Part shown: positions 1,343-13,570 of the stretch, in pieces
Position numbering within the stretch: position 1 is the first letter of the stretch
Layout of the letters: each line of letters starts with the position of its first letter
Assembly (NCBI GenBank): GCA_025361665.1
Contig: JANYKF010000400.1
Location: 1 to 13,570 of the forward strand
DNA from: Clostridiaceae bacterium
GTDB taxonomy: Bacteria; Bacillota; Clostridia; DSM-8532
Direction of reading: 5' to 3'
Length of the DNA: 13,570 nucleotides
Notes under the pieces: model-generated
What the model was told of the DNA's origin: nothing
The model's database searches: none
The model's input: only the letters and a program-made list of their open reading frames with translations
Position numbers and translations under genes: made by a program

Positions 1343-4162
1343 CTAGAATTGTATCCTCAGATTGCCCACGCCATTTGCCCGGTAGTCGAAATGCACCAGA
1401 TCACCCTCCACGTCGACTTGACCATCGACAGGCTGCTCAAGCAGGTTCACCTGTATCGCACCCTTCGGGGGCTTCATCACCCTCACTGTGCCGCGGCCCG
1501 ATTTCCCCTCCGCTTCATAGTAGCGGAGGATGATCCCGTGACGATCCTCTGCCTTTTTCACAGAGGAAAGGACCAGCCCGTTGCCCGAAAATGCCATCAG
1601 GGATTGAAAGGCCGGCATGGACCCTTTGTGCGCCTTTGTGGAGGCAACAACAACCTTGCTGCAGAATGCCCTGGCTGCGGAGATCGCTTCCGCCTTGCCC
1701 CGGCTGCCAAGCGCGATGGCCATCCGCATGCGGTGTTCCCCGACTTCCGGCCACGGATCCGGATCCACGGAGGACCGGATGAGCGTGAGGGACAGCCCTT
1801 TCACCGTACCGCGAAAGCCATACTTGCAGTCGCTGATGAGCATCAAAGAGGAACCCGTGCCGTTCACCGGCATTCCGAAAGACTGTGCGGGGACATCCAT
1901 TTCCAGAAGTTCCCGGTCGATGACACCCATCGGCACATCGTATCTGACATTGACATAGCCGTACGCCACCGGCATGTGGAAATTGAGCTGCGGATAGAAG
2001 GCGTCCTGCCGGCCGATTTCCTGCCAACGGACGGTCGTGTCAAAGCGAAGCATCTTCTCTCCGGCATCCAGAGAAACCATGACGAAGAGTTTGGACCCAT
2101 TTCCAAATTCCGCCTCATACGACAGGCTCTGACGGAAGAATTCCGAACCGATTTGGATTTTTGTGATTTTGACACCCTTGTTCAGAATGTCGACATTCAT
2201 ATGACGGCCAACTTGCCATGCCGACATGCCGCGAATCGGGTCTTCCTCCACCAGGCGAAAGACGCCCATCGGGCAACCGGGCTTCACAAATTCTTCACCT
2301 GTCTTTTTCTCCACAAAAGAGGTGATGCAGCCATCGCAAGGGTCAAGAACCACGCGGACATGCTCATTTTCCAGAACGGTTTCCACGATCCGATCCACTC
2401 TCGGGTCAAGAACCTTCACCGAGAAGGTGGTTGGACCGGCTTCGTTCAAGATCACGGTTGTATAGCCCATGGCAGGCATCTTCACCTTCACCAGGACTTC
2501 TGCGTGCAGGTGCCCCCAATAGTCGTCATATCCCGTGGTTGTCACCTGGTGGCCAAGCTTGTTTCCAAGCGCATCGGTCCACTGCATGCGTGCGGCGTCG
2601 CCGTTCCAGTCCCACAGGGTGATCTCCGCCAGTTCCTCCCGCTCGGACGGAAGCGGATTGAACACGGTGAACAGCCGCCTCAGGCCCGCATGCCGACCGG
2701 TCTGCGGCAGCCTGCCCTGAGTCAGTCCGAATCCGACCCCGGCTCCCTCGCTGCGGGTCAGGGAAATGTCTTCCTCCAGGAAAAAAGCGGATGTGTCGGC
2801 TGCATCGGAAAACGCGCGGACATTCATCTGGCGGCTGGTGTTGGCGGTGGCAAAGACTTCCTGGTACTGGCCCATCGCATATTCCCGCGTATCCACCGTG
2901 CCTGACCCGGGAAGGATGTCATGAAACTGGTTGAACAAGATTTTTTTCCATGCATCGGTGAATTCTGCCGCCTTGTACGGGGTTCCGAGGGCCATTTCCG
3001 CCAATGCGGCCGTCCCTTCGGCTTCCGCCAGAATTGCCTCGCCCAGGCGATTGCCTTTTTTCTGACGGGTCTGCGTGGTGTAGCAGCCATCGAAAATGAA
3101 ATTCAACTCACCTTCGACGACCGGAAATGCCTCGCGGTTTTGTTCCGCATGGTTGTAGAACTGTTCATACGTTCCAAACTTGAATGCGGGAAATATGGGC
3201 CAGGCATTCATGTCGATTATCTTTTCGATGTCCCTTCTGGTGGGGCCACCGCCATGATCGCCCACCCCATAGACGCGAAGCATCGAATCAAGTCCGTTTT
3301 TCTTGCAGAACTCCGGCACGACAAGGGCGCAGCGGCCATTCATCGCCCAGTTGTACCAGGTCGGTTCCCGGAAAACGAGGATGGCGCGTCCTGAAGGGGC
3401 TTTCCAGTTGTACAGCACCTGCTTGTCATATCCACGGCAGTGGTAATAGTACTTGACGCCCCCATCACACAAAACCTCCGGCACATTGATATTGTGTCCG
3501 AATGTGTCCGGCTCATAGTCGATATTCAAGCTTGCCGGATCGATCTCCAGCAGATTGGACAGATATTGTTTGGTATACAGAAAATGGCGGGCCATGCTTT
3601 CCAGATTGGGCATGTTGCGGTCCGCTTCAACCCAGGTGGAAGCGGTGACTTCCCACCGTTTTTCATGAACACGCTGCCTGATTTCATCCAGCATTTCCGG
3701 GCAATACTGCTCAACGATGCGATAGACCGAGGCCTGGCTTTGCCCGAATGTGAACCCGGGATATTCCTTCATCAGATCCAGCATGGTGCGAAAGGTGTCC
3801 AGTGTGATGGACACCGTTTCATCGAATCCCCACATCCAATTCATATCGATATGGGCATGGCCGATGCAAAGCAGACTGTATCCCTTGGCCTTTTCGGCAA
3901 TGGGTGACAGTGCCTGCTCCACGGCGATCGTGGTTGCCTTTGTGAGGGCGCCTTCCGAAACATAGGCTTCCCATGCAATATCGGTGGCGTCGAAAACCAA
4001 CTGGTCGTATGCACCGCCTTCACTCTCCGATAGCTTGAATGCATATTGCAGCTCCAGCATGCATCGGGCTCCCCAATCATTCGGGTGCATGTCATGCATC
4101 ACCAGATTGAGTTCCCCGAGGTTGGTTTTGGCCATTTTTTCCATCTTCATCAAATGCGTCAT
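1343..4162 (-). CDS. alpha-mannosidase, glycoside hydrolase family 38
   Basis: This 939-residue GH38 enzyme should be a zinc-dependent retaining alpha-mannosidase acting on cytoplasmic mannosides, as there is no signal peptide. The zinc site begins with GHAHIDMNWMWGFDE (H104 and D106). WVEADRNMPNLES follows near 177-189. The nucleophile is D219 in YEPDTFGHN. GDHGGGPTR (301-309) matches the glycine-rich active-site loop, and H414 in FNQFHDILPGSG completes the zinc ligands. The C-terminal half is the usual beta-rich GH38 region and ends in the tail motif GIILRYYE. The catalytic motif starts about 100 residues in, so the N-terminal domain is short. The first of three in-frame ATGs is chosen because AAGGGGGG lies 7 nt before it. 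That ATG overlaps the stop of the upstream dehydrogenase as ATGA, which implies translational coupling. Linkage specificity cannot be read from sequence. Confidence 0.93.
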   Translation of the reverse strand: MTHLMKMEKMAKTNLGELNLVMHDMHPNDWGARCMLELQYAFKLSESEGGAYDQLVFDATDIAWEAYVSEGALTKATTIAVEQALSPIAEKAKGYSLLCIGHAHIDMNWMWGFDETVSITLDTFRTMLDLMKEYPGFTFGQSQASVYRIVEQYCPEMLDEIRQRVHEKRWEVTASTWVEADRNMPNLESMARHFLYTKQYLSNLLEIDPASLNIDYEPDTFGHNINVPEVLCDGGVKYYYHCRGYDKQVLYNWKAPSGRAILVFREPTWYNWAMNGRCALVVPEFCKKNGLDSMLRVYGVGDHGGGPTRRDIEKIIDMNAWPIFPAFKFGTYEQFYNHAEQNREAFPVVEGELNFIFDGCYTTQTRQKKGNRLGEAILAEAEGTAALAEMALGTPYKAAEFTDAWKKILFNQFHDILPGSGTVDTREYAMGQYQEVFATANTSRQMNVRAFSDAADTSAFFLEEDISLTRSEGAGVGFGLTQGRLPQTGRHAGLRRLFTVFNPLPSEREELAEITLWDWNGDAARMQWTDALGNKLGHQVTTTGYDDYWGHLHAEVLVKVKMPAMGYTTVILNEAGPTTFSVKVLDPRVDRIVETVLENEHVRVVLDPCDGCITSFVEKKTGEEFVKPGCPMGVFRLVEEDPIRGMSAWQVGRHMNVDILNKGVKITKIQIGSEFFRQSLSYEAEFGNGSKLFVMVSLDAGEKMLRFDTTVRWQEIGRQDAFYPQLNFHMPVAYGYVNVRYDVPMGVIDRELLEMDVPAQSFGMPVNGTGSSLMLISDCKYGFRGTVKGLSLTLIRSSVDPDPWPEVGEHRMRMAIALGSRGKAEAISAARAFCSKVVVASTKAHKGSMPAFQSLMAFSGNGLVLSSVKKAEDRHGIILRYYEAEGKSGRGTVRVMKPPKGAIQVNLLEQPVDGQVDVEGDLVHFDYRANGVGNLRIQF

Positions 4163-5418
4163 CCGTGTTCCCCCCTTGTTGTTGAAGTGATTTGCATTTG
4201 TTTCCCTTGCTCAGCCAGCCCAATCATGCTCTCCAGCAAAGAACCCTTCTTCAGCAGGTTGAAGCATTCCACCACGGAACACCCCAGCGGTTCTTCCGGA
4301 CCGATGCCGCACCGGTTTTGCAGCACGGCTTCCAGCCCCTGTTGTGATAGTTCCCTCTGCAGGTCCATGGCGGACGCATCTTCCTCCGGGTTGAACAGAA
4401 ATGCCGCCGCAATTCCGACGCACAGCCATGACGGGAAAGAGCCCTGTGAAATGCAAAGACGCGCAGCCCCTTCCAATCGATCTTCAGCTGCCAGTTTTCG
4501 GACGGGATCTCGACCCACCCGAAAGACGGTATCACCCAGCGCTGGGTTTCCAAAACGGTAAAGCAGATCCTCCACATGGGCAAGCAGCGGCTCCAGTGGC
4601 TTTTCATGCCGCATGGCCAGCGAACGGGCGGCATCGGTCATGGCCGACTGCACGAACAGGCGGATATCCGCCATGCAAATGGCTTCATACAGGAATGTAC
4701 AGCCCTTCAGGTATCCAAGGTAAGCCGTCATCGCATGACCCATGTTGTGCAGGTACAATTTCCGTTCCAGATGGAACCGAAATGGAGAACTGGGCTCAAT
4801 CGTCGCCAAAGGGGGAACCGGTCCACGGAAGGCATCCTTGTCGACCGGCAGGGTCTTGTATGCTTCCACACAGACACGCAGCGGATTGTCCGCTTTCTGT
4901 TCCGGTGTCATCACGGGAACCATGCGCCCGATGGAAGCCTCCACCAGCCCGACCCGTTCCGAAAACATCCCGTGCAGCTCTTCCGGCAATTCATGACGAA
5001 CCAGTTCGGCGAGATAATGGTTGGCATCCATCAGGTTCTCGCAGATTAGAATGTCCAGCGGGCGGGTGACGCCATCCTCCCAGCGGTGCTGCAATCCTTT
5101 GGCCAGCGGACCTGCAATGCGCGGCAGGATATTCGCCCCCACTGCGGTTGCCATCATGTCGGCCGTCGCGATGGCCGTGATGACGGCTTCAAGATTTCGG
5201 CCATCCACCGCGGACACCGGTTCCATCCAGGTTTCCGTGTATCCCTCACGGGCCACGATGCGCACGGGATACCGATGTTCCCGGTTCAACGCTTCCACCA
5301 CGACCGGGTCGACATCGATGAAAATCACTTCATATCCGGCTTCCGAGAACAGTTGCCCGATGAAGCCACGCCCGATGTTTCCGGCTCCGTATTGCACGAA
5401 TTTTTTCAGTTCCCTCAT
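4159..5418 (-). CDS. mtlD: mannitol-1-phosphate 5-dehydrogenase-like polyol-phosphate dehydrogenase
   Basis: This 419-residue protein belongs to the long-chain mannitol dehydrogenase superfamily and most resembles MtlD, which interconverts mannitol 1-phosphate and fructose 6-phosphate with NAD(H). The N-terminal Rossmann motif is GAGNIGRGFIG (11-21), followed by an acidic FIDVD (33-37) suited to NAD. CENLMDA lies at 126-132. The catalytic pattern K-x4-N-x2-H is present as K220, N225 and H228 in KLYLHNMGHAMTAYLG. It is slightly longer than a typical MtlD of about 380 residues. GAGGCGGG precedes the ATG. The gene follows a PfkB kinase across a 99-bp gap holding a hairpin element, and is coupled by ATGA overlap to a GH38 mannosidase. 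No mannitol PTS gene is visible, so the substrate could be another hexitol or polyol phosphate. The symbol denotes family resemblance, not proven specificity. Confidence 0.85.
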   Translation of the reverse strand: MRELKKFVQYGAGNIGRGFIGQLFSEAGYEVIFIDVDPVVVEALNREHRYPVRIVAREGYTETWMEPVSAVDGRNLEAVITAIATADMMATAVGANILPRIAGPLAKGLQHRWEDGVTRPLDILICENLMDANHYLAELVRHELPEELHGMFSERVGLVEASIGRMVPVMTPEQKADNPLRVCVEAYKTLPVDKDAFRGPVPPLATIEPSSPFRFHLERKLYLHNMGHAMTAYLGYLKGCTFLYEAICMADIRLFVQSAMTDAARSLAMRHEKPLEPLLAHVEDLLYRFGNPALGDTVFRVGRDPVRKLAAEDRLEGAARLCISQGSFPSWLCVGIAAAFLFNPEEDASAMDLQRELSQQGLEAVLQNRCGIGPEEPLGCSVVECFNLLKKGSLLESMIGLAEQGKQMQITSTTRGEHG

Positions 5419-5431
5419 GATATCCCGCCTC

Positions 5432-5517
5432 TATCCTATAAATGCGTCTGTTCAATAACGGAAACCATGAAGCCAAGACGCATTTATAGTGGCTTCCTGG
5501 TGTTCGGGGCGAAGCAT
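5432..5517 (-). other. hairpin repeat element, copy 1 (between kinase and dehydrogenase)
   Basis: Perfect 14-bp inverted repeats, CTATAAATGCGTCT (5436-5449) and AGACGCATTTATAG (5476-5489), enclose 26 nt. The right arm is followed by CTTCCTGGTGTTCGGGGCGAAGCAT, a segment that can itself fold through TTCG/CGAA. On the minus strand the element begins immediately after the kinase stop codon and ends about 13 nt before the dehydrogenase start. A second copy with the same flanks and length, but a compensatorily altered stem, lies at 8988-9072. There is no U-tract, so this does not look like an intrinsic terminator. An mRNA-stability or processing hairpin, or a mobile palindromic element, are both possible. 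Confidence 0.6.
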
Positions 5518-6450
5518 CTATGGTCTATCCAGCAATGCCTTCACCTGGTCCATGGACCTGATGCCCGTCGATGCGCCTACGCCGGATACACAGAGCGCGC
5601 CCACCGCATTGGCCATCCTGCCGCATTCCGGCATCGGCAAACCAAGTGTGACCCCTGTGAGGAAGCCCGCGCAGAAGGCATCTCCGGCCCCAGTGGTGTC
5701 CAGCACTTCTTTCACGGGGAACCCGGGAATGCGCCATGTCTCCTCCGCCCGGCGGATGAGGCACCCGTCCGCCCCGAGCTTGATGACAACCGTCTGCACG
5801 CCCATGCCGAGGAACAGTTCGGAAATGACAACCGGATCCCGTTGTCCGGACAATTCCACCGCCTCGTCATAACTGGGCAGGAACAGGTCGATATGCGGCA
5901 TGCACGGCTTCAGCACGGTCATCCAGCGTCCTTTCGAGTCCCAGGCGGTATCCAGCGCGGTTGTTTTCCCAAGTGCCTTCGCCCTTTTCAGGACCCTGGC
6001 ACAAGAGTCACCATCAAAAGCGGGCATGAGCATCGTTCCGGCCACAAAAGCGATGCGGGACTGTTCCAGCAAGGCTTCTGGCACATCCGTGTCGGTGAAG
6101 ACCGCGTTTGCACCCAGGCTGTGCAGAAAACTGCGTTCGCCGTGCGCATCCACAAGCACGACGGAAGCCGAGGTTCCGACATGCGGGTCTTCAGCCACGT
6201 AGCGGTCTTCAACACCGGCCTGCCGCAAGGCTCCGCGCATGAACGAACCGAACCCGTCGGCGCCCACTTTGCCGGAAACCGCCGTGCGGAGCCCGATGCG
6301 CGCCATGTCGATGGCACTGCTGACCGCGCAGCCGCCCGTGAACAAATCGATATGATCCACCAGCGTCAGTTTGCCGGTCTCCGGCAGGGTGCGGACAGTC
6401 CGCGTGACCACATCGGCCACCAGGATGCCTATGCACGCAACGTCAAACAT
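5518..6450 (-). CDS. PfkB/ribokinase-family carbohydrate kinase
   Basis: This 310-residue cytoplasmic kinase of the PfkB family should transfer phosphate from ATP to a sugar, polyol or nucleoside hydroxyl. It starts DVACIGILVADVV. The first PfkB signature region is FTGGCAVSSAIDMARIG (37-53), with GKVGADGFG just after (60-68). The second signature is DTTGAGDAFCAGF (251-263), in which D257 is the expected catalytic base and GAG forms the anion hole. LDTAWDSKGRW near 166-176 and SYDEAVELSG near 193-202 match the usual pre-ATP-site regions. The start is fixed by GGGAGG, 6 nt before the ATG. It is the first gene of a leftward operon, under the promoter at 6595-6623, and is divergent from an ADP-ribosylglycohydrolase-family gene. 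PfkB kinases are commonly found beside such genes. Substrate is unassigned; order in the operon suggests it feeds the dehydrogenase. Confidence 0.9.
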   Translation of the reverse strand: MFDVACIGILVADVVTRTVRTLPETGKLTLVDHIDLFTGGCAVSSAIDMARIGLRTAVSGKVGADGFGSFMRGALRQAGVEDRYVAEDPHVGTSASVVLVDAHGERSFLHSLGANAVFTDTDVPEALLEQSRIAFVAGTMLMPAFDGDSCARVLKRAKALGKTTALDTAWDSKGRWMTVLKPCMPHIDLFLPSYDEAVELSGQRDPVVISELFLGMGVQTVVIKLGADGCLIRRAEETWRIPGFPVKEVLDTTGAGDAFCAGFLTGVTLGLPMPECGRMANAVGALCVSGVGASTGIRSMDQVKALLDRP

Positions 6451-6780: not shown

Positions 6781-8163
6781 ATGCTGAAAAACCAACCCTG
6801 GATGTTGAACGCTCCGGATCTGCACTTCGAGCTGCAGCAAAGCAAGGAAGAAGGCAAAGACATATCGGGCTATGAAGAACGCATCGGCGCGATTCAGGCA
6901 ATGCCGGCGGATGACCCAGACCGCGAGCGGATGGCCGGCGAGCTTCTGGATGAGATGCTTTCACTGCCAGTCACGGAAGGCTACCGCTTCGAAGAGCCTT
7001 CGGACCTCGAGAGCATCCAAAGGCTGAGACCCACAACTGCAAAGAACTGGACCATCCCGGCCGCAATGCCGGATGCAGCGGTCCTTCTGGACCGGGTCCA
7101 TGGCGCCTGGCTGGGCCGGTGCGCCGGATGCCTGCTTGGCCAACCCATCGAAGGTTGGCGCAGGGACCGCATTCGCGGGCTGCTGAAAGAAACAGGCAAC
7201 TATCCGTTCAAGCACTACATTTCCTCCGATATCGGCGAAGAATTGAGAACCCGATACGATGTGCGGGATGAGGGCCATGTATATGGCAGCGACAAGAAGA
7301 ATTGGATCAACAATGTTGCCTATATGCCTGAGGATGACGATACGAACTACACCGTCATCGGATTGAAAGTGCTTGAAACCTATGGCTTCGGATTCACGCC
7401 GGAGGATGTTGCCGAATCGTGGCTGACGAATCTGCCGCTGCTGCATGTCTGCACGGCTGAACGCGTGGCATACAGGAACCTCGCGGCCTCCATTCCACCT
7501 CCGCAATCCGCCTCTTTCCGCAACGTATACAGGGAATGGATCGGCGCACAGATCCGCGCGGATTTCTTCGGATACGCCGCACCTGGAAACCCGGCCCTCG
7601 GCGCGGACATGGCCTGGAGGGATGCCTCCATCTCCCATGTGAAAAACGGCATATACGGTGAAATGATGATGGCGGCGATGCTTTCAGCCGCAGCCGTTTC
7701 GTCCGAAGTGAACATCGTGCTGGAGGCCGGGCTCTCCCAAATCCCGGAACACTGCCGGCTGGCGGAAGAAGTGCAGGAAGTCATCTTCTGGAAACAGGCC
7801 GGGGTTCTCGACTGGGAAGCTGCCCTGGACAACATCCATGAGCGCTACGATGAAAAGAAGGGGCACGAGTGGTGCCATACAATCTCAAACGCGCTGATTG
7901 TCAGCGTGGCCTTGCTCTATGGGGAACTTGACTTCGAGAAATCAATCGGCATTGCAGTTGTCGGCGCGCTGGATACGGACTGCAACGGGGCCACAGTCGG
8001 CTCCATCGTGGGGATGATGCTTGGCGCGTCAAAACTGCCCGCTTCCTGGATTGACCCGCTTTGCGACACATTGAAATCCGGTGTGGACGGCTTCGGCATG
8101 GTGAAGATTTCCGACATGGCCAGACGCACGGTGGACCTTGTCATGAAGCAGAAGCATCAATAG
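6781..8163 (+). CDS. ADP-ribosylglycohydrolase-family protein
   Basis: This 460-residue protein belongs to the DraG/ADP-ribosylglycohydrolase fold family of binuclear-magnesium hydrolases that cleave N- or O-glycosidic ADP-ribose bonds. Many bacterial members have unknown small-molecule substrates. The family domain begins with HGAWLGRCAGCLLGQPIEG (107-125). Acidic metal ligands appear in DDDTN (185-189) and in DTDCNGATVGSIVG (398-411, with D398 and D400). About 100 N-terminal residues precede the domain and carry a charged segment (EEGKDISGYEER, 23-34). ATG at 6781 is chosen because AAGGAGG lies 8 nt upstream; an in-frame GTG at 6748 extends through that site and is less likely. It is divergent from the PfkB kinase gene, a frequent neighbour of such proteins, suggesting sugar or nucleoside salvage rather than protein de-ADP-ribosylation. 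Its last 14 codons and stop lie in a 44-bp tandem duplication. Confidence 0.87.
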   Translation: MLKNQPWMLNAPDLHFELQQSKEEGKDISGYEERIGAIQAMPADDPDRERMAGELLDEMLSLPVTEGYRFEEPSDLESIQRLRPTTAKNWTIPAAMPDAAVLLDRVHGAWLGRCAGCLLGQPIEGWRRDRIRGLLKETGNYPFKHYISSDIGEELRTRYDVRDEGHVYGSDKKNWINNVAYMPEDDDTNYTVIGLKVLETYGFGFTPEDVAESWLTNLPLLHVCTAERVAYRNLAASIPPPQSASFRNVYREWIGAQIRADFFGYAAPGNPALGADMAWRDASISHVKNGIYGEMMMAAMLSAAAVSSEVNIVLEAGLSQIPEHCRLAEEVQEVIFWKQAGVLDWEAALDNIHERYDEKKGHEWCHTISNALIVSVALLYGELDFEKSIGIAVVGALDTDCNGATVGSIVGMMLGASKLPASWIDPLCDTLKSGVDGFGMVKISDMARRTVDLVMKQKHQ

Positions 8164-8207
8164 CCAGGCGCACGGTGGACCTTGTCATGAAGCAGAAGCG
8201 TCAATAA
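8120..8207. repeat. 44-bp tandem duplication spanning a stop codon
   Basis: Unit 1 (8120-8163) encodes the C-terminal tail and TAG stop of the ADP-ribosylglycohydrolase-family gene. Unit 2 (8164-8207) repeats it with three substitutions: CAGACG to CAGGCG, AAGCATC to AAGCGTC, and TAG to TAA. The second unit lies outside the frame. It also supplies the stop codon and last residues of the convergent truA gene (TCAATAACT on the plus strand). Confidence 0.9.
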
Positions 8208-8938
8208 CTTACCCGTTCCAGATAGAGTCCGCATGCATCCGCCATATGCCCTGCCTGGTTCCGCTCCATTGAATCAAAGATGTCCGGGATGGCTTCCGCA
8301 TCCATTTCACCCAATCCGACCTCAACCATGGTTCCGACGATCCGCCTTACCATATTGTGGAGAAAGCCATCCCCACGAACCCGGATGTCAACGAACCCGT
8401 TGGCTTCCTTGATCTCGATGGACGTGATCACGCGTACCATTGACTTCGACTTTGAACGCGCATTGGTGAAGGCTGTGAAATCATGCTCGCCGATGAAGAA
8501 CCGGGCTGCGCCTTTCATGGAGGCGAGATCGAGCTTCTGCGGCACATGCATGCTGAATTTCCGCATGAAGGGATTCGAATAGGCTTCATTCCAGATCCGG
8601 TACAAATAGGTCTTCTCTTTCGCATTGTACCTGGAATGGAAAATATCCGGGACCGCCGCAACATCGATGATGCTGATGTCTTCCGGAAGATACCTGTTCA
8701 GATACTGCATGATTTCGGATTCAACCAGTTTCGCCCTGCTTTTGAAATTGGCGATTTGGGCAATGGCATGCACGCCGGCATCCGTCCGGCTGCTTCCGAT
8801 GATTTCAACTTTTTTTCCTTCCATTTCAGACAAAACCTTTTCGATTTTCCCTTGAATGGAGTTCTCGCCCTCTCCAAGCCGCTGCCAACCCTTGTATCTT
8901 CCGCCGTCATATTGAATGGTCATTCTGTAATTGTTCAT
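8201..8938 (-). CDS. truA: tRNA pseudouridine synthase A
   Basis: TruA converts uridines 38-40 of the tRNA anticodon stem to pseudouridine in the cytoplasm, working as a homodimer. The 245 residues match the family length. The N-terminus is MTIQYDGGRYKGWQR. The catalytic aspartate is D53 in GSSRTDAGVHA (48-58). RYNAKEKTYLYRI, GEHDFTAFTNA and GDGFLHNMVRRIVG follow in the normal order. Start selection is supported by AAGGAGATC just upstream of the ATG. It is a housekeeping gene set among sugar genes. Clostridial genomes often carry more than one truA-like gene, so this may not be the only copy. It has its own 220-bp upstream region with a hairpin element. Its stop codon lies in the second unit of the duplication at 8120-8207. 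Confidence 0.94.
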   Translation of the reverse strand: MNNYRMTIQYDGGRYKGWQRLGEGENSIQGKIEKVLSEMEGKKVEIIGSSRTDAGVHAIAQIANFKSRAKLVESEIMQYLNRYLPEDISIIDVAAVPDIFHSRYNAKEKTYLYRIWNEAYSNPFMRKFSMHVPQKLDLASMKGAARFFIGEHDFTAFTNARSKSKSMVRVITSIEIKEANGFVDIRVRGDGFLHNMVRRIVGTMVEVGLGEMDAEAIPDIFDSMERNQAGHMADACGLYLERVSY

Positions 8939-8987
8939 CCTGATCTCCTTGTGAACCCGTATTCGGAATATCGTACCCTGTCAGTTT

Positions 8988-9072
8988 TATCCTGTATTTG
9001 TGCTGCTGGTGTGCAATTTTCACTGAGCATGGGCACAAATACAGGTCTTCCTGGTAATTCGCCGCGAAGCAT
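8988..9072 (-). other. hairpin repeat element, copy 2 (upstream of truA)
   Basis: Perfect 13-bp arms, CCTGTATTTGTGC (8991-9003) and GCACAAATACAGG (9033-9045), enclose 29 nt that may pair further through TGCT/AGCA and GTG/CAC. As in copy 1 the left arm is preceded by TATC and the right arm is followed by CTTCCTGGT, then TTCG, CGAAGCAT. The aligned 11-bp stems differ at four positions and each change is compensated on the opposite arm. Enclosed lengths (32 and 31 nt) are nearly identical. It lies 52 nt before truA, in its probable leader or promoter region. No convincing promoter for truA was found around it. Confidence 0.6.
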
Positions 9073-9099
9073 ATGTAGTGTATCATATCTTTCGACTGC

Positions 9100-9173
9100 A
9101 GGTTTCCCTCTGGAATTCAGCGGACTGCCACAGCAAAGGTTTCCCTGTCGAATTCCGCGGACTACCACAGCAG
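9100..9173. repeat. two tandem 37-bp repeats overlapping the 3' end of the URO-D-family gene
   Basis: Unit A (9100-9136) and unit B (9137-9173) both begin AGGTTTCCCT. They share GAATTC, GCGGACT and CCACAGCA at the same offsets. Unit B contains the last codons and TAG stop of the URO-D-family gene; the matching bases in unit A read CAG. The core resembles the segment after the right arm of the hairpin element just downstream. The repeats hold no gene. Confidence 0.8.
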
Positions 9174-10580
9174 CGTCGTCCAAATATAATTGTACACCCA
9201 GAAGTCCGCCTCTTCCCAACTATTCCGCACAAGTGCCGTGTCTCCGGAAAGATGCGTGTACCCGCGGCTCTCTTCCTCCCAAGGGATGCAGACACCCGGC
9301 GGCCGTTTCCCCATCTCCATGGGCGCGGGGTTCGAGGGGCTCTCCCTTTCACGGTGTTTAGCGGCGGAAGACCGGCTGTATGCGCCATGCTCCATGGTAT
9401 ATGCAATCGCCGTCTTCACGTTGTCCACGTTGATGTCCTGCATCATCAATGCCGTGGAATCCAGGATGTATCCCCCTTCCGGCGCAAGTGCGGAAAAGAG
9501 TTTCGCCAAATATGCCTCCACTTCCTGTTTCGTGCCCCAGGCCAGCAATTCATAGGGCAGCCCGCCGCTGACGGCAAACTTGCGCTTGATCGTATTCACC
9601 AGTTTCAAGGGATCACCCTTGTCAAGATGATAGATGATGCTGCCCGCAGGAAACTCCAGCAGCTTGTCATAGTGGGCTTCCCAGTTGCCTTCGCCATAGA
9701 ACAGGATACGATGTCCCTTTGCGATAATTTCCTCGAAAACAGGTTTCAGCGTGGGCCACATGATGCCATCGAACATCTCCGGCGTGATGAACGGGACAGT
9801 TCCCCGGTGCGCCCAGATCGTGATGGGTGCGTTCCTGTCAGCGTCCGCACCGCCAAGGGCATTCTTCACGATGTGCGGCATCAGCGCTTCGCAGGCTTTC
9901 AATACCTTTTTCGGCTGTGTGAAGGCGTCCATGACCGAGCCCTGGTAACCTCTCAGTTTGTCCATCAGCAAATCGAAAGGCGCCTTGATCATGCCCGCAT
10001 TGGCGGAGACGACGCCGGCCTCATATTTCAACTTGTCGGCATATTCCCCGAATGAACCGATGTATCGGGCATACGCCATGGCTCCGGAAATCAGCGCGGC
10101 ATTGTGTTGAAAGGCAACAGGGCCGCCGGGAGGAGAAAGCCGGGTCGTATATCGGGAAAACCATTTGGTCAGGAGGAAGGCCGTCGGGTCATCGGCAAAC
10201 TCGTCGTACTCATCCGCCTTCATGCAGAGGTCGGCCTCGGAGGCCGGTTCGTGAAACTGGCACACGCTGTCCGGTGAAACATCCACCCCCGGCACGGCGA
10301 AATATTTCCAGGAAGCGCCTTTCCCCACGCCATAGTTGCTCCAGATGGCGTTGAGCATCGCCGCGTCCACATTCAGTTCCATCGCCATCTTCCGGGTGGC
10401 GTCAAAAGCCAGGCGATAGTCGCAGGCCGTTTGCTGGGTTGTATATCCGGCATATTTCGCGGCAATTTCCTCAAAGAAAAACCGTATCGGAATGCGGTCC
10501 GGCATGTTGTTGTCCATAGCCGCGGCATACCGGCTGAAAGCCGCATGGTATCTGTTTTCAATCTCTTGTGATGCGAACAT
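9162..10580 (-). CDS. uroporphyrinogen decarboxylase-family (URO-D/MtaA fold) protein
   Basis: This 472-residue protein has the URO-D TIM-barrel fold, shared by HemE and by methyltransferases that act on corrinoid proteins. It is much longer than HemE (about 350 residues) and no heme gene is nearby, so it is more likely a methyltransferase-like or uncharacterised paralogue. Family-like segments are the N-terminal DRIPIRF (28-34), PFDLLMDKLRG, IIYHLDKGDP and the late GGYILDSTALMMQDINVDNVKTAI. Where MtaA-like enzymes have a zinc His-x-Cys, this protein reads HLD, and I see no Cys in the late glycine-rich segment, so the zinc site may be absent. About 70 residues follow the barrel, ending in NYIWTTLLW. 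GGAGGG precedes the ATG. It follows the second GH38 by 41 bp, presumably in the same operon. Its stop lies within a 37-bp tandem repeat. Confidence 0.75.
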   Translation of the reverse strand: MFASQEIENRYHAAFSRYAAAMDNNMPDRIPIRFFFEEIAAKYAGYTTQQTACDYRLAFDATRKMAMELNVDAAMLNAIWSNYGVGKGASWKYFAVPGVDVSPDSVCQFHEPASEADLCMKADEYDEFADDPTAFLLTKWFSRYTTRLSPPGGPVAFQHNAALISGAMAYARYIGSFGEYADKLKYEAGVVSANAGMIKAPFDLLMDKLRGYQGSVMDAFTQPKKVLKACEALMPHIVKNALGGADADRNAPITIWAHRGTVPFITPEMFDGIMWPTLKPVFEEIIAKGHRILFYGEGNWEAHYDKLLEFPAGSIIYHLDKGDPLKLVNTIKRKFAVSGGLPYELLAWGTKQEVEAYLAKLFSALAPEGGYILDSTALMMQDINVDNVKTAIAYTMEHGAYSRSSAAKHRERESPSNPAPMEMGKRPPGVCIPWEEESRGYTHLSGDTALVRNSWEEADFWVYNYIWTTLLW

Positions 10581-10621: not shown

Positions 10622-13519
10622 TCAGCGTGACAGCTTCAAGGTGACGGCTTGATATGGCCTGATTTCCATGGCGACATGTCCTTCGACGATCTTCAGCAAG
10701 TCTCCTGTGGATTCATTCATGTCCGAGATCATTGCCTCACTGAAACCCCTGACATCCAGGCTGATCTGCCCGCTCTTTCCCTGGTTTTCATAGAACCTGA
10801 GAATGATGCCATCCTCATCGTGACAGCATTTGAAAGCAGACAGGCAGACGTGTTCCGGCAGCCCGCGGACAAGATGGCTGAAATCCGTCAATCGTTCATC
10901 CACGGAATCCGAACGAATCGCATGAACAACCGGAGGGCAGAAAAACGCATTGGCAATGGGCCGGAACGGGGCAAGATCATCCTGGCTGACAGCATATGGA
11001 AGGTAGGACCATTCGAATGCCTGCAATCCCAGGCACTGCGCACCGGGCGTGTCAAACGGATCGGATGCCCTTTCGACCCGCTGCATCATGTTCTCGCGGG
11101 TCATTTTGCCAATTCCCCGAAGCAGCGTGATGCAGATATCCGGCTGCCCGGTCAGCGGATTCGGGACGGCTTCATAGTCATAGAGCCCTTTGACCGCGAT
11201 GGCAAGCCCGTTTTGACAATCCTGCACGGCAAGCCATTCCCGGAACGGAAAGAGCCGGGTTGGCGGCTGCCGCCATGCCTGTTTCGGTTCAGGCGGACTG
11301 ACAGGACGTTTCAGAATGGCCAGATGACCTTGTGACAGGATCTCCGTTGCTTTCACGTTGGCGGGAAAGCGGAGCCGCACCCGATGGTCCCTGGCCCTGT
11401 TGTCAAGGACCAATCGAACATCGACCCGGGGAATCAGGCTGAACAATGATACTGTGAACGTCACCGGCATCTCGACCCGTTCGTCACTTCTCGCATCCCC
11501 ATTCAATTGTGCCGGAATGCTCAGCGTGCCGGTCATCTCAAGCGTTTGTCGGACAGGGCCGTCTTCCGCCAGGCGGCATTTGAATGGGAATCGTGTTGAG
11601 CGGACCGTTTCTCCCGGAATCCATGGGGGTGAATAGTCCCAGGCGTCTCCGGCGTCCGCTTCTTCCTCAATCAGGTTCAGATTGCAGTATTGCCTGCCCG
11701 TACGCTTGTCAAGAATATGGATCAGCGACCCTGAAACTTCTATGTGCAGCAGACTGTTTTCGATTGCGATATTGGCTGGATTTTCTTTATTTTCCTGATT
11801 TTCCTGATTTGCCTGATCTGCCTGATTTGCCTGAACCGGGCCAGCATCCTGCCAGGCATAGGTTTTGATTTGCAGACTGTCAAAGCTGTCGGAAAACAGG
11901 ACCTTGCGGTATACCTCCGCCGGGCAAGCTCCGTTGCGGGGCAAACCAATACCGTTCATCGCAATCGGATCCCTCTGTAAAATCTGGGTTGGCATCTTCG
12001 CTCCTTGTCCATCGATTATGAATCCTGCCTTGTCACCAATCGGCAGCCATACTTCCGCCGTTTGAGGGAAAGAGGACGATGCCGGTGCATAGGCGACGAT
12101 TCCTTTTGCCTTCATGTCCCACCAATGCAGGACATGCCGGCCGGCGAACTTCAGCACATCATGCATCACCCCGGCGGCGATCTGGTGAACGGCTGCATAA
12201 CGGGCCTCCATCTCGATGTGAACCTCGTCGGTACTGGACCCATGTATGCTGTCATGCGCGCTGTTGATCAGGATGTTGCGCCAGGCTTCGTGCAAAAGGG
12301 CCGGTTTCCCGGCGTATCCATGGCAGCCGGCGAGGGCCGTCAATGGCTCAACGTATTTTTCCATGAGCATTTCAGCTGAAAACTGCTTCTGCTTCAGATA
12401 TGTCCGGGTAGACAATGCGCCCAGCAGGATGAACTGATAGACCGAGCCAAGCATTTCTTCACGCAGGACAAGCGGGTGATGCAGATCCGCTTCCCGAAAG
12501 TCTGCCGGATGATTCTGGCTTGCTTCCTGAAAGTCTGCCGGATGATTCTGGCTTGCTTCCTGAAATTCTGCCGGATGATTCGGGCTTGCTTCCTGAAATT
12601 CTGCCGGATGATTCGGGCTTGCTTCCTGAAGATTTGTCCGCAGACCCAAACGCTCCCTGACCATGTTGATATAGTCTTCGGCATCGCCTGAGACAAATCT
12701 TATGTCTTTCTGGCTGTCATTGGCGATTTTGATCGAATCGCCGATGTTGATCTGCGGCGGGAGGTGGTCGAACCCGGCAATCAAGGGAATGATGCCTGAC
12801 GGATACCGTTCTGCGATGCGTCGGGCATTTTCAACAAGTTCCGTGGCGATTCGTTCCGGATCATCATGATCTGCCAGTTCAAGATGCCATTCATAAGACA
12901 GATACCCCGGATAATATGGGACATCGCGAGGCTGAATCGGGTCAACGACTTTATTGAACAAATTGAAGGCACCGCCGTAGCTTTCCCTGAAATGACTTGC
13001 CAGCACGCGTGAACCATCGGGTCCCTCAAGGATGAATTCATCCGGATGACCTCCCTCGATTTCGGGCATGCCGCGCATGAAAAGCAAACTGTCAATCCCG
13101 AAATTGTTAAGAATCTGCGGCATCTGCAGCGGGTGTCCGAAGTTGTCCGGCAGATACCCGGCCATCATGCACCGGCCATATCGATTGGACAGGCGGTTGC
13201 CATAAAGGCAGTTCCGGATGATTGCCTCGGCACTTGGCAGCCATTCGTCAAATTGTGTGTAGAAGGGTCCGATGCTCAGCTTCCGAGATGCAACCAGACC
13301 CATCATGGCCTGAAGATCCCCGGGAACGACTTCAAGATAAGCATCCAGCGGAAACACCTGCCCATCGAGCACATAGTTCTTGAAATCGGGGCGATGAGCG
13401 GCTATATGCTTCAGCTGCTCCAGCGCCTCAACTGTCCAGAACCGGTAGGACCTCATCGGCTGATACCATTCGATGTCCATGTGTCCCGCGACAACGACAA
13501 ATCCAATCAGTTCAGGCAT
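10622..13519 (-). CDS. alpha-mannosidase, glycoside hydrolase family 38 (MngB-like), with internal tandem repeats
   Basis: This 965-residue GH38 enzyme lacks a signal peptide and starts almost directly in the catalytic barrel, as MngB-type mannosidases do. Zinc ligands H13 and D15 lie in GHMDIEWYQP. The nucleophile is D125 in LPDNFGHPLQMPQIL. GFDHLPPQ lies near 249-256, GALSTRTYLKQ near 367-377, and the third zinc ligand is H422 in NSAHDSIHGSSTDEVH. The C-terminal tail has GIILRFYENQGKSG, shared with the other GH38 in this window, although their active-site motifs differ. Two in-frame repeats enlarge loops: about four 11-residue units (EASPNHPAEFQ type, 298-343) before the GALSTR segment, and an Asn/Gln/Glu-rich run (563-582). 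Start at 13519 follows GAGGAGG at 6-nt spacing; an open frame extends to 13543 but passes through that site. The substrate is an alpha-mannoside of unknown linkage, probably cytoplasmic. Confidence 0.92.
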   Translation of the reverse strand: MPELIGFVVVAGHMDIEWYQPMRSYRFWTVEALEQLKHIAAHRPDFKNYVLDGQVFPLDAYLEVVPGDLQAMMGLVASRKLSIGPFYTQFDEWLPSAEAIIRNCLYGNRLSNRYGRCMMAGYLPDNFGHPLQMPQILNNFGIDSLLFMRGMPEIEGGHPDEFILEGPDGSRVLASHFRESYGGAFNLFNKVVDPIQPRDVPYYPGYLSYEWHLELADHDDPERIATELVENARRIAERYPSGIIPLIAGFDHLPPQINIGDSIKIANDSQKDIRFVSGDAEDYINMVRERLGLRTNLQEASPNHPAEFQEASPNHPAEFQEASQNHPADFQEASQNHPADFREADLHHPLVLREEMLGSVYQFILLGALSTRTYLKQKQFSAEMLMEKYVEPLTALAGCHGYAGKPALLHEAWRNILINSAHDSIHGSSTDEVHIEMEARYAAVHQIAAGVMHDVLKFAGRHVLHWWDMKAKGIVAYAPASSSFPQTAEVWLPIGDKAGFIIDGQGAKMPTQILQRDPIAMNGIGLPRNGACPAEVYRKVLFSDSFDSLQIKTYAWQDAGPVQANQADQANQENQENKENPANIAIENSLLHIEVSGSLIHILDKRTGRQYCNLNLIEEEADAGDAWDYSPPWIPGETVRSTRFPFKCRLAEDGPVRQTLEMTGTLSIPAQLNGDARSDERVEMPVTFTVSLFSLIPRVDVRLVLDNRARDHRVRLRFPANVKATEILSQGHLAILKRPVSPPEPKQAWRQPPTRLFPFREWLAVQDCQNGLAIAVKGLYDYEAVPNPLTGQPDICITLLRGIGKMTRENMMQRVERASDPFDTPGAQCLGLQAFEWSYLPYAVSQDDLAPFRPIANAFFCPPVVHAIRSDSVDERLTDFSHLVRGLPEHVCLSAFKCCHDEDGIILRFYENQGKSGQISLDVRGFSEAMISDMNESTGDLLKIVEGHVAMEIRPYQAVTLKLSR
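11774..11833 (-). repeat. 9-bp in-frame microsatellite encoding QAN/QEN triplets
   Basis: On the plus strand the run reads as repeats of TTTCCTGAT, TTGCCTGAT and CTGCCTGAT. It encodes about seven three-residue units (QAN, QAD, QEN, KEN) at residues 563-582 of the second GH38. The hydrophilic run sits between the sheet ending KTYAWQ and the IAIENSLLHIEV strand, as a linker would. Copy-number change would keep the frame. Confidence 0.85.
12490..12631 (-). repeat. 33-bp in-frame tandem repeat inside the second GH38 gene
   Basis: Four units begin at 12490, 12523, 12556 and 12589, and a fifth partial copy begins at 12622. Units 3 and 4 are identical, units 1 and 2 differ by one base, and the pairs differ from each other at two bases. 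Each unit encodes 11 residues of the EASPNHPAEFQ or EASQNHPADFQ type. A degenerate unit (EADLHHPLVLR) lies on the left. Identical adjacent copies indicate recent expansion by slippage or unequal crossover. Confidence 0.95.
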
Positions 13520-13570
13520 CTGGTCCTCCTCGGGAAACATCACCGGATTGATCCGAAAAAAGGCAACTGG
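13520..13570. other. 51-bp upstream edge, unassigned
   Basis: This contains the ribosome-binding site GAGGAGG of the second GH38 gene. One minus-strand frame ends in TGA about 20 nt before that start, and another ends 5 nt inside the gene. Either could be the tail of an upstream operon gene, but too little is present to tell. No promoter boxes are evident. Confidence 0.3.

Follow-up and report, generated by a model that had tools for sequence, protein, structure and literature searches.

Two hairpin-forming sequences lie 3.5 kb apart in a 13,570-nt contig of a Clostridiaceae bacterium (JANYKF010000400.1, assembly GCA_025361665.1; this whole stretch of DNA is referred to below as the window), and the question raised by this locus is what kind of element they represent, the sequence-only reading having offered a 3′-UTR or processing element, a structured regulatory RNA, or a palindromic repeat moved by a transposase in trans. 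Both hairpins are present as described, at 5432-5517 and 8988-9072, with 11-nt arms at 5436-5446/5479-5489 and 8992-9002/9034-9044 that enclose 32 nt in copy 1 and 31 nt in copy 2, and four differences separate arm CTATAAATGCG from arm CTGTATTTGTG, each of them matched on the opposite arm. The 11-bp stems are parts of longer perfect stems, of 14 bp in copy 1 and 13 bp in copy 2, and the element itself is larger than first proposed, its covariance-model matches covering 5428-5532 and 8984-9087 and being read on the minus strand. The features concerned are as follows:

5428..5532, minus strand: element copy 1, whole (covariance-model match, E 5.7e-22)
5490..5532, minus strand: head of copy 1, GGATAGACC..TGCTTCGCCCCGAACACCAGGAA, including the small hairpin TTCG-CCC-CGAA (alignment)
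5436..5489, minus strand: hairpin of copy 1, 14-bp stem 5436-5449/5476-5489 with a 26-nt loop (folding and inverted-repeat scan)
5428..5436, minus strand: right end of copy 1, GGATAGAGG, with the common GGRTAGA motif (alignment)
8984..9087, minus strand: element copy 2, whole (covariance-model match, E 2.9e-20)
9046..9087, minus strand: head of copy 2, GATACACT..TGCTTCGCGGCGAATTACCAGGAA, including the small hairpin TTCG-CGG-CGAA (alignment)
8991..9045, minus strand: hairpin of copy 2, 13-bp stem 8991-9003/9033-9045 (folding and inverted-repeat scan)
8984..8992, minus strand: right end of copy 2, GGATAAAAC, with a degenerate GGRTAGA motif (alignment)
5518..6450, minus strand: PfkB-family carbohydrate kinase, upstream of copy 1 and outside the element (Pfam PF00294)
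4159..5418, minus strand: mannitol dehydrogenase family protein, downstream of copy 1 and outside the element (Pfam PF01232/PF08125)
9162..10580, minus strand: URO-D family protein, upstream of copy 2 and outside the element (Pfam PF01208)
8201..8938, minus strand: TruA-like pseudouridine synthase, downstream of copy 2 and outside the element (Pfam PF01416)

On the minus strand, the alignable span of both copies runs from a left end resembling GGATAGAC through TGCTTCGC..CGAA..ACCAGGAAG and the hairpin to a right end resembling GGATAG. A scan of the window for perfect inverted repeats (arms of 11 nt or more, spacers of 20-60 nt) returned these two places only, as seven overlapping matches, and the same scan of 200 first-order Markov sequences yielded a mean of 0.18 matches and a maximum of 7. 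As RNA, the two copies fold only moderately better than shuffled sequences, with z values of -1.84 (copy 1) and -3.13 (copy 2) on the minus strand and of -1.39 and -2.15 on the plus strand. The window holds other repeats as well: a 36-nt direct repeat (89% alike) at 9100-9172 between copy 2 and the URO-D-like gene; a directly repeated 44-bp segment (93% alike) at 8116-8203, at the end of an ADP-ribosylglycohydrolase-like ORF and extending into the spacer before the convergent truA; and a 33-bp tandem repeat at 12473-12630, with four registered copies, which gives an in-frame 11-residue repeat inside the GH38-like ORF 10622-13543, one of two GH38 alpha-mannosidase-like genes within these 13.6 kb (the other being 1343-4162).

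The two copies belong to a large family. BLASTN seeds in the same genome bin (E ≤ 1) gave 19 places with copy 1 as query and 36 with copy 2, the lists overlapping, from which 42 copies were extracted end to end, 14 rows having no recognised right end being left out; all but one of these (L030) entered the alignment and the covariance model. The search of the genome and its relatives with this model did find further copies: at least 66 matches at E ≤ 3.2e-7 in the own bin (2.59 Mb, 525 contigs, 83% complete), a lower bound because 150 of the 687 first-look candidates were scored, and about 60 in a sister species (G001, 75% complete), the one other genome of the genus that was searched. Relaxing the limit to E ≤ 0.1 raises the own-bin total to 71 places; the five added ones have E values of 0.005-0.083, and four of them overlap known copies on the opposite strand. 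In the sister species, the scoring of 64 out of 1150 candidates gave 60 matches at E ≤ 0.01, and a second search with 120 candidates scored gave 59 at E ≤ 0.001, bringing the copies detected in both genomes together to about 125.

Outside this pair of genomes the search was negative. The element is present in two of 61 relatives and in two of 33 genomes of the order, no covariance-model match being found in the 59 other relatives or the 31 other genomes of the order (overlapping sets). An exact-pattern scan of a collection described as covering 84,980 species, which may leave out records of the own genome, returned 34 stretches, all from one metagenome-assembled genome, 'Clostridia bacterium isolate bin_86', which is the sister species; neither viral contigs scanned with the exact pattern nor phages and plasmids searched with a single copy as query gave a match. 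Comparison with Rfam brought no known family to light: Rfam 15 has none in the window at the gathering threshold, and at E ≤ 1 five loci gave only five weak matches (microRNA families and RsmY), all outside the element copies. None of the titles and abstracts listed by literature searches describes such a family. The repeat family is real, has so far been found in a single genus, and was matched to no described family in the searches made.

In the orientation in which it is read here, the element consists of a conserved head of about 40 nt, a hairpin usually of 10-15 bp and a GGRTAGA motif, with a typical length of about 95 nt and a family range of about 75-110 bp (down to 74 nt). The head consensus can be written GRYAGACY..TGCTTCGCNNYGAATCACCAGSAA or GRYAGACY....ATGCTTCGCNNYGAATCACCAGSAA, and it contains the small hairpin TTCG-NNN-YGAA. 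Conservation runs from about column 4 of the alignment to two bases past GGRTAG, the flanks having near-zero information. Most long-loop forms have stems of 11-15 bp enclosing 22-35 nt, and the hairpin sequence varies by subfamily while the fold is retained. In the sister species there is also a minimal form of 74 nt, whose 11-bp stem, CCTCTAATTGC/GCAATTAGAGG, is unrelated to the others and whose loop has 3 nt, so that the long loop is dispensable; among the copies clustered, this short form accounts for 12, all in the sister species, and it opens an array at loci L203, L217, L248 and L253. A stem score of at least 10 was found downstream of 81 of 110 heads, compared with 1.5% of composition shuffles, and a score of at least 8 downstream of 92, compared with 18%, a few of the 110 heads possibly being spurious because three mismatches were allowed. 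Single linkage merged the hairpin subfamilies and average linkage still placed 66 of 98 hairpins in one cluster, for which reason we give no subfamily counts. At three loci (L208, L214 and L230), heads with a truncated-looking hairpin lie, as judged by eye, directly in front of unrelated genes, just 5′ of the ribosome-binding site and the start codon. A promoter reading with TAGAAT as the -10 element was dropped, its last T being only 35% conserved.

The matched differences between the two window copies had been taken to indicate selection on a fold, with no broken pair. The latter holds for those two copies and not for the family, in which 91.4% of 775 pair cells (41 aligned copies) are standard, with roughly 10% of the cells in the main stem unpaired. 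This pairing rate is nevertheless above that of all 500 shuffles, as is the covariation score (0.267 against 0.137, sd 0.009; reached by none of the 500); cells altered on both sides number 64 against 21 in shuffles, and sliding the pairing partners lowers pairing to 33-42%. The remaining two of the five measures show no excess, namely the number of pairs in which both sides have changed (9 against 7.4, reached by 72 of 500 shuffles) and further pair types (19 against 19.1, reached by 344). The outcomes that would have counted against the sequence-only reading, a lack of further copies or stem changes left uncompensated, were thus for the most part not observed, with these two measures and the unpaired cells on the other side. 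Since the relatedness of copies inflates the other covariation measures, we place the main weight on the occurrence of unlike stems under one head.

Selection on a fold remains a plausible source of this pattern, but template switching between hairpin arms can also yield compensated changes, as described in PMC8794818, and the matched stem changes might then be mutational, arising during replication with no need for selection on the fold. This account, which is compatible with a mobile repeat, finds some support in copy L007, otherwise close to subfamily L001-L006, which has paired double changes including a transversion, and in two subfamilies distinguished by A-T to T-A flips at adjacent pairs. 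Against it, pairwise comparison of similar hairpins (comparisons, not independent events) gave 499 one-sided differences, far more than the 47 compensated ones (27 further differences being two-sided), and the 47 comprise 35 transitions and 12 transversions, as expected for stepwise change; moreover, the same head carries stems of unrelated sequence and length. Template switching may explain part of the arm matching, and we consider it rather unlikely that it accounts for the matching in general. The folded species is not identified as RNA of the element strand by these data, since among 89 unique full-length copies (23 of 112 rows having been dropped as short or identical) the main stem has, on that strand, 71 A.C cells against 26 G.T cells, 29 of the A.C cells coming from the last pair, possibly not a genuine one. 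This imbalance does not speak for an element-strand RNA as the folded species, and a functional RNA is not required by the covariation.

Comparison with relatives shows individual sites that differ in the presence of a copy. One copy in the own bin lies within a ribosomal protein operon, between rpsH and rplF (L263:1521-1625), where the spacer is 213 nt long. Of six family members compared, five have spacers of 76, 87, 96, 96 and 117 nt at this place, shorter by 96-137 nt. In the sixth relative (G005) the spacer measures 235 nt and holds a different insert (L305) of roughly 120-160 nt, possibly another repeat family of its genus. A stretch just 5′ of rplF is conserved in all seven genomes compared (L263:1626-1710 and spacers L301-L306), with GTTCTGAAAAG, an apparent hairpin and CAAT.TAAG..C.GGAGGT, possibly serving as a leader or processing site of the L6 operon. 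The search of the sister bin did not return the rpsH-rplF region, all matches there being elements. In the part of the sister bin compared, six orthologous sites had their two flanks on a single piece; five were aligned and judged by eye, of which four are without the element in the sister species (L063, L072, L023 and L091) and one (L079/L121) has an element there too, with a different hairpin, while the sixth (L078), outside this alignment, has about 1.5 kb between its flanks. The two species are too diverged for an empty site exact to the base, and none was seen among these alignments. Several elements supply the stop codon of the adjacent gene, including that of the kinase at copy 1 (5518-5520, within the head), and oppositely oriented elements show overlaps of this kind as well.

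Copies are also joined to one another. We found 16 tandem pairs, 63-125 nt apart (one across a run of N), most of them joined at GGRTAGAC, and the arrays are chained head-to-tail. Fourteen pairs entered the comparison of neighbouring hairpins and 12 were resolved; their identity averaged 0.65, compared with 0.63 for random pairs of the same genome, and exceeded 67% in half of the tandem pairs and in 48% of the random ones. As neighbours resemble each other, on average, no more than random copies do, the arrays look like the outcome of repeated insertion at a common junction; the hairpins of the most alike pair are 96% identical, and local duplication is a possible source of one tandem pair.

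The family is thus dispersed, modular (a head, an exchangeable hairpin and a GGRTAGA end), located mostly in intergenic DNA beside unrelated genes, present or absent at orthologous sites and joined in arrays, and we conclude, with a probability of roughly three in four, that it is a non-autonomous mobile palindromic repeat, about 75-110 bp long and specific to the genus. A palindromic repeat moved by a transposase in trans is accordingly the best fitting of the three readings offered at the outset, with the qualification that no candidate mobilizer was found. A hairpin whose sequence varies and whose fold is kept also makes small mobile DNA elements likelier than a control switch of one gene.

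The placement of the copies bears on the alternative that they are structured cis-acting RNAs (leaders, processing or mRNA-stability elements) kept in many copies by selection on an RNA fold. From 112 matches, three duplicates (L044) and one antisense match (L119) were dropped; of the resulting 108 copies, 77 have both neighbours called (50 in the own bin), the other 31 being left out of the counts, and these figures are approximate because genes were called with a simple codon-usage script. Forty-eight copies lie between co-directional genes (two of them inside a called gene), 26 between divergent and three between convergent genes, where 51, 18 and 8 would be expected from the intergenic length in 1.05 Mb of the sister species (p 0.037), so that convergent spacers are mildly under-used. 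In the co-directional pairs, 33 copies are read with the genes and 15 against them (p 0.013), or 33 and 13 when the two copies inside a called gene are removed (p 0.005), and among the 42 copies followed by a gene on the same strand, the distance from the end of the copy to the called gene start is 5-62 nt in 18. The orientation bias would also arise from a regulatory role and therefore counts against a purely mobile reading; together with the covariation, the copies that end shortly before a gene start, the scarcity of convergent placement and the small head hairpin, in which G.T cells outnumber A.C cells on the element strand (28 against 11 in the same 89 copies), it speaks for the RNA alternative. 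The 17 divergent sites were uninformative on replication orientation, 11 agreeing with the gene majority of the contig and 9 with GC skew. On the other hand, the departure from the intergenic expectation is only mild, the excess of A.C in the main stem runs the opposite way, tandem copies carry unlike hairpins, Rfam has no such family, and the other genera of the family compared gave no matches. The downstream genes are moreover unrelated: those scanned with Pfam (30 of the 37 distinct genes behind 42 copy-gene entries) belong to diverse families, e.g., ribosomal L6, EF-G, SecA, MinC, a V-ATPase subunit and hydrogenase, on which ground a regulon was rejected. The regulatory-RNA and processing-element readings are thus weakened, also by the restriction to one genus and by the copy within a ribosomal protein operon, and although local use as an RNA element is possible at some sites, we hold a cis-acting RNA to be an improbable explanation of the family.

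If the element is a mobile repeat, the closest described systems are the REP (GTAG and CGTC) repeats and the ends of IS200/IS605 elements, to which it is, in our best reading, comparable. Like the former, as set out in PMC3733652 and PMC8266576, it is a dispersed intergenic palindrome in high copy, with subfamilies that differ by complementary stem changes and with a GTAG-like tag; a preference for unlike neighbours is reported for most GTAG and CGTC families (PMC3733652), and here too joined copies mostly carry different hairpins. A classical REP family whose RAYT (TnpA-REP) gene happens to be missing from both incomplete bins would account for these likenesses, GGRTAG holding the tag at both ends. 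There is, however, little chance that it is the right answer: the Y1 transposase domain (Y1_Tnp, PF01797) had no match over the cut-off in either bin with control genomes positive (two weak matches in the sister bin, E 0.03 and 0.19), the tag GRYAG precedes the small hairpin by about 10 nt and the main one by about 35 nt and does not lie at, or 1-2 nt from, the 5′ hairpin foot as GT[AG]G does in REPs, roughly a third of the ends read GATAG and not GTAG, and the length of about 95 nt, with its conserved head of about 40 nt and long-looped second hairpin, exceeds the 21-65 nt given for REPs in PMC6006769. Convergent spacers are also rare here, while REPs lie mostly between unidirectional and convergent genes; CGTC repeats, for their part, also occur without a dedicated transposase (both PMC3733652). 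With IS200/IS605 ends the element shares two hairpins near the ends, a short motif on the insertion side and, apparently, the lack of a clear target duplication (PMC6006769), and it differs in that neither bin has a TnpA (Y1) over the cut-off or a TnpB (PF07282; 6 of 14 control genomes positive) and that no full-length element or coding copy was met among the heads read. These were 12 of 110, picked mainly for a missing or odd hairpin; no autonomous gene-carrying copy was found among them, several running, as judged by eye, into unrelated genes and none into a recognised transposase. Bacterial MITEs such as RUP, NEMIS, Bcr1 and ERIC are similarly non-coding, gene-adjacent and hairpin-forming at 70-300 bp (PMC3733652), but MITEs defined by terminal inverted repeats and target-site duplication differ from the present element, whose ends carry the GGRTAGA-type motif as direct repeats, with no terminal inverted repeats. 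No clear target duplication was found at 81 isolated copies; the two ends of a copy resemble each other slightly more than in shuffled controls in the own bin (p 0.026) and not in the sister species (p 0.33), a target duplication remaining conceivable in view of the former, and the left end has a weak GRY bias.

Integron attC sites combine a constant box with a sequence-free hairpin, are chained at a common junction and are recognised by their fold and not by stem sequence. The present arrays recall them in these respects, and tyrosine recombinases, which would have to move such sites, are present in both bins; the best frame, of 403 aa on sister contig C138 (L312/L314), matches the integron integrase model (TIGR02249) in two stretches of 105.9 and 96.3 bits. 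Neither bin has a match over its 265-bit cut-off, although none of 14 control genomes passes it either, so that this search is without a positive control, and no genes were seen between the joined copies; integron-like attC sites are in our opinion very improbable. An IS91-type or helitron-like (Y2) mobilizer was rejected, the own bin having one Y2 gene, near which an element match was never better than E 0.27, and the sister bin none, as was a retron, the own bin having one reverse transcriptase (presumably group-II-like, from its motifs as judged by eye), the sister bin none, and the element ends not being complementary by eye. With bins 83% and 75% complete, the absence of a mobilizer is weak evidence.

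For the mobile palindromic repeat favoured here, a single-strand, HUH-like step is the most likely mechanism, which we propose tentatively and at somewhat less than even odds, mobility itself being much better supported. A trans-acting protein would recognise the head together with the folded hairpin, the substrate probably being single-stranded DNA, where the hairpin is presumed to form in vivo; after cutting at GGRTAG, it would place the element 3′ of a target resembling GRYAG and leave that target unduplicated. The right end of the element bears this motif too and could itself serve as a target, new copies landing behind old ones and building arrays, and because the hairpin is held by structure and not by sequence, subfamilies could replace the stem. 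Mostly neutral insertion, with selection against disruption of coding sequence, would explain much of the placement. Such a scheme would resemble the logic of IS200/IS605 and REP elements as outlined in PMC6006769 and PMC3733652. It is conceivable, if unlikely, that the family stands for an undescribed class of 'hairpin cassettes' moved as single strands, with a fixed head, sequence-unrelated but equivalent hairpins, a GRYAG target and GGRTAG chaining, and an enzyme other than Y1/RAYT, Y2 or integron integrase.

As regards the meaning of these findings, covariation alone is insufficient to call a regulatory RNA. In about 125 copies, including the 74-nt minimal forms, the conserved head and the hairpin defined by its fold only can be cleanly separated, which makes this family well suited as a natural test case, both for recognition by structure only in small mobile repeats and for the question whether the covarying stems of DNA repeats result from selection or from the copying of one arm from the other.
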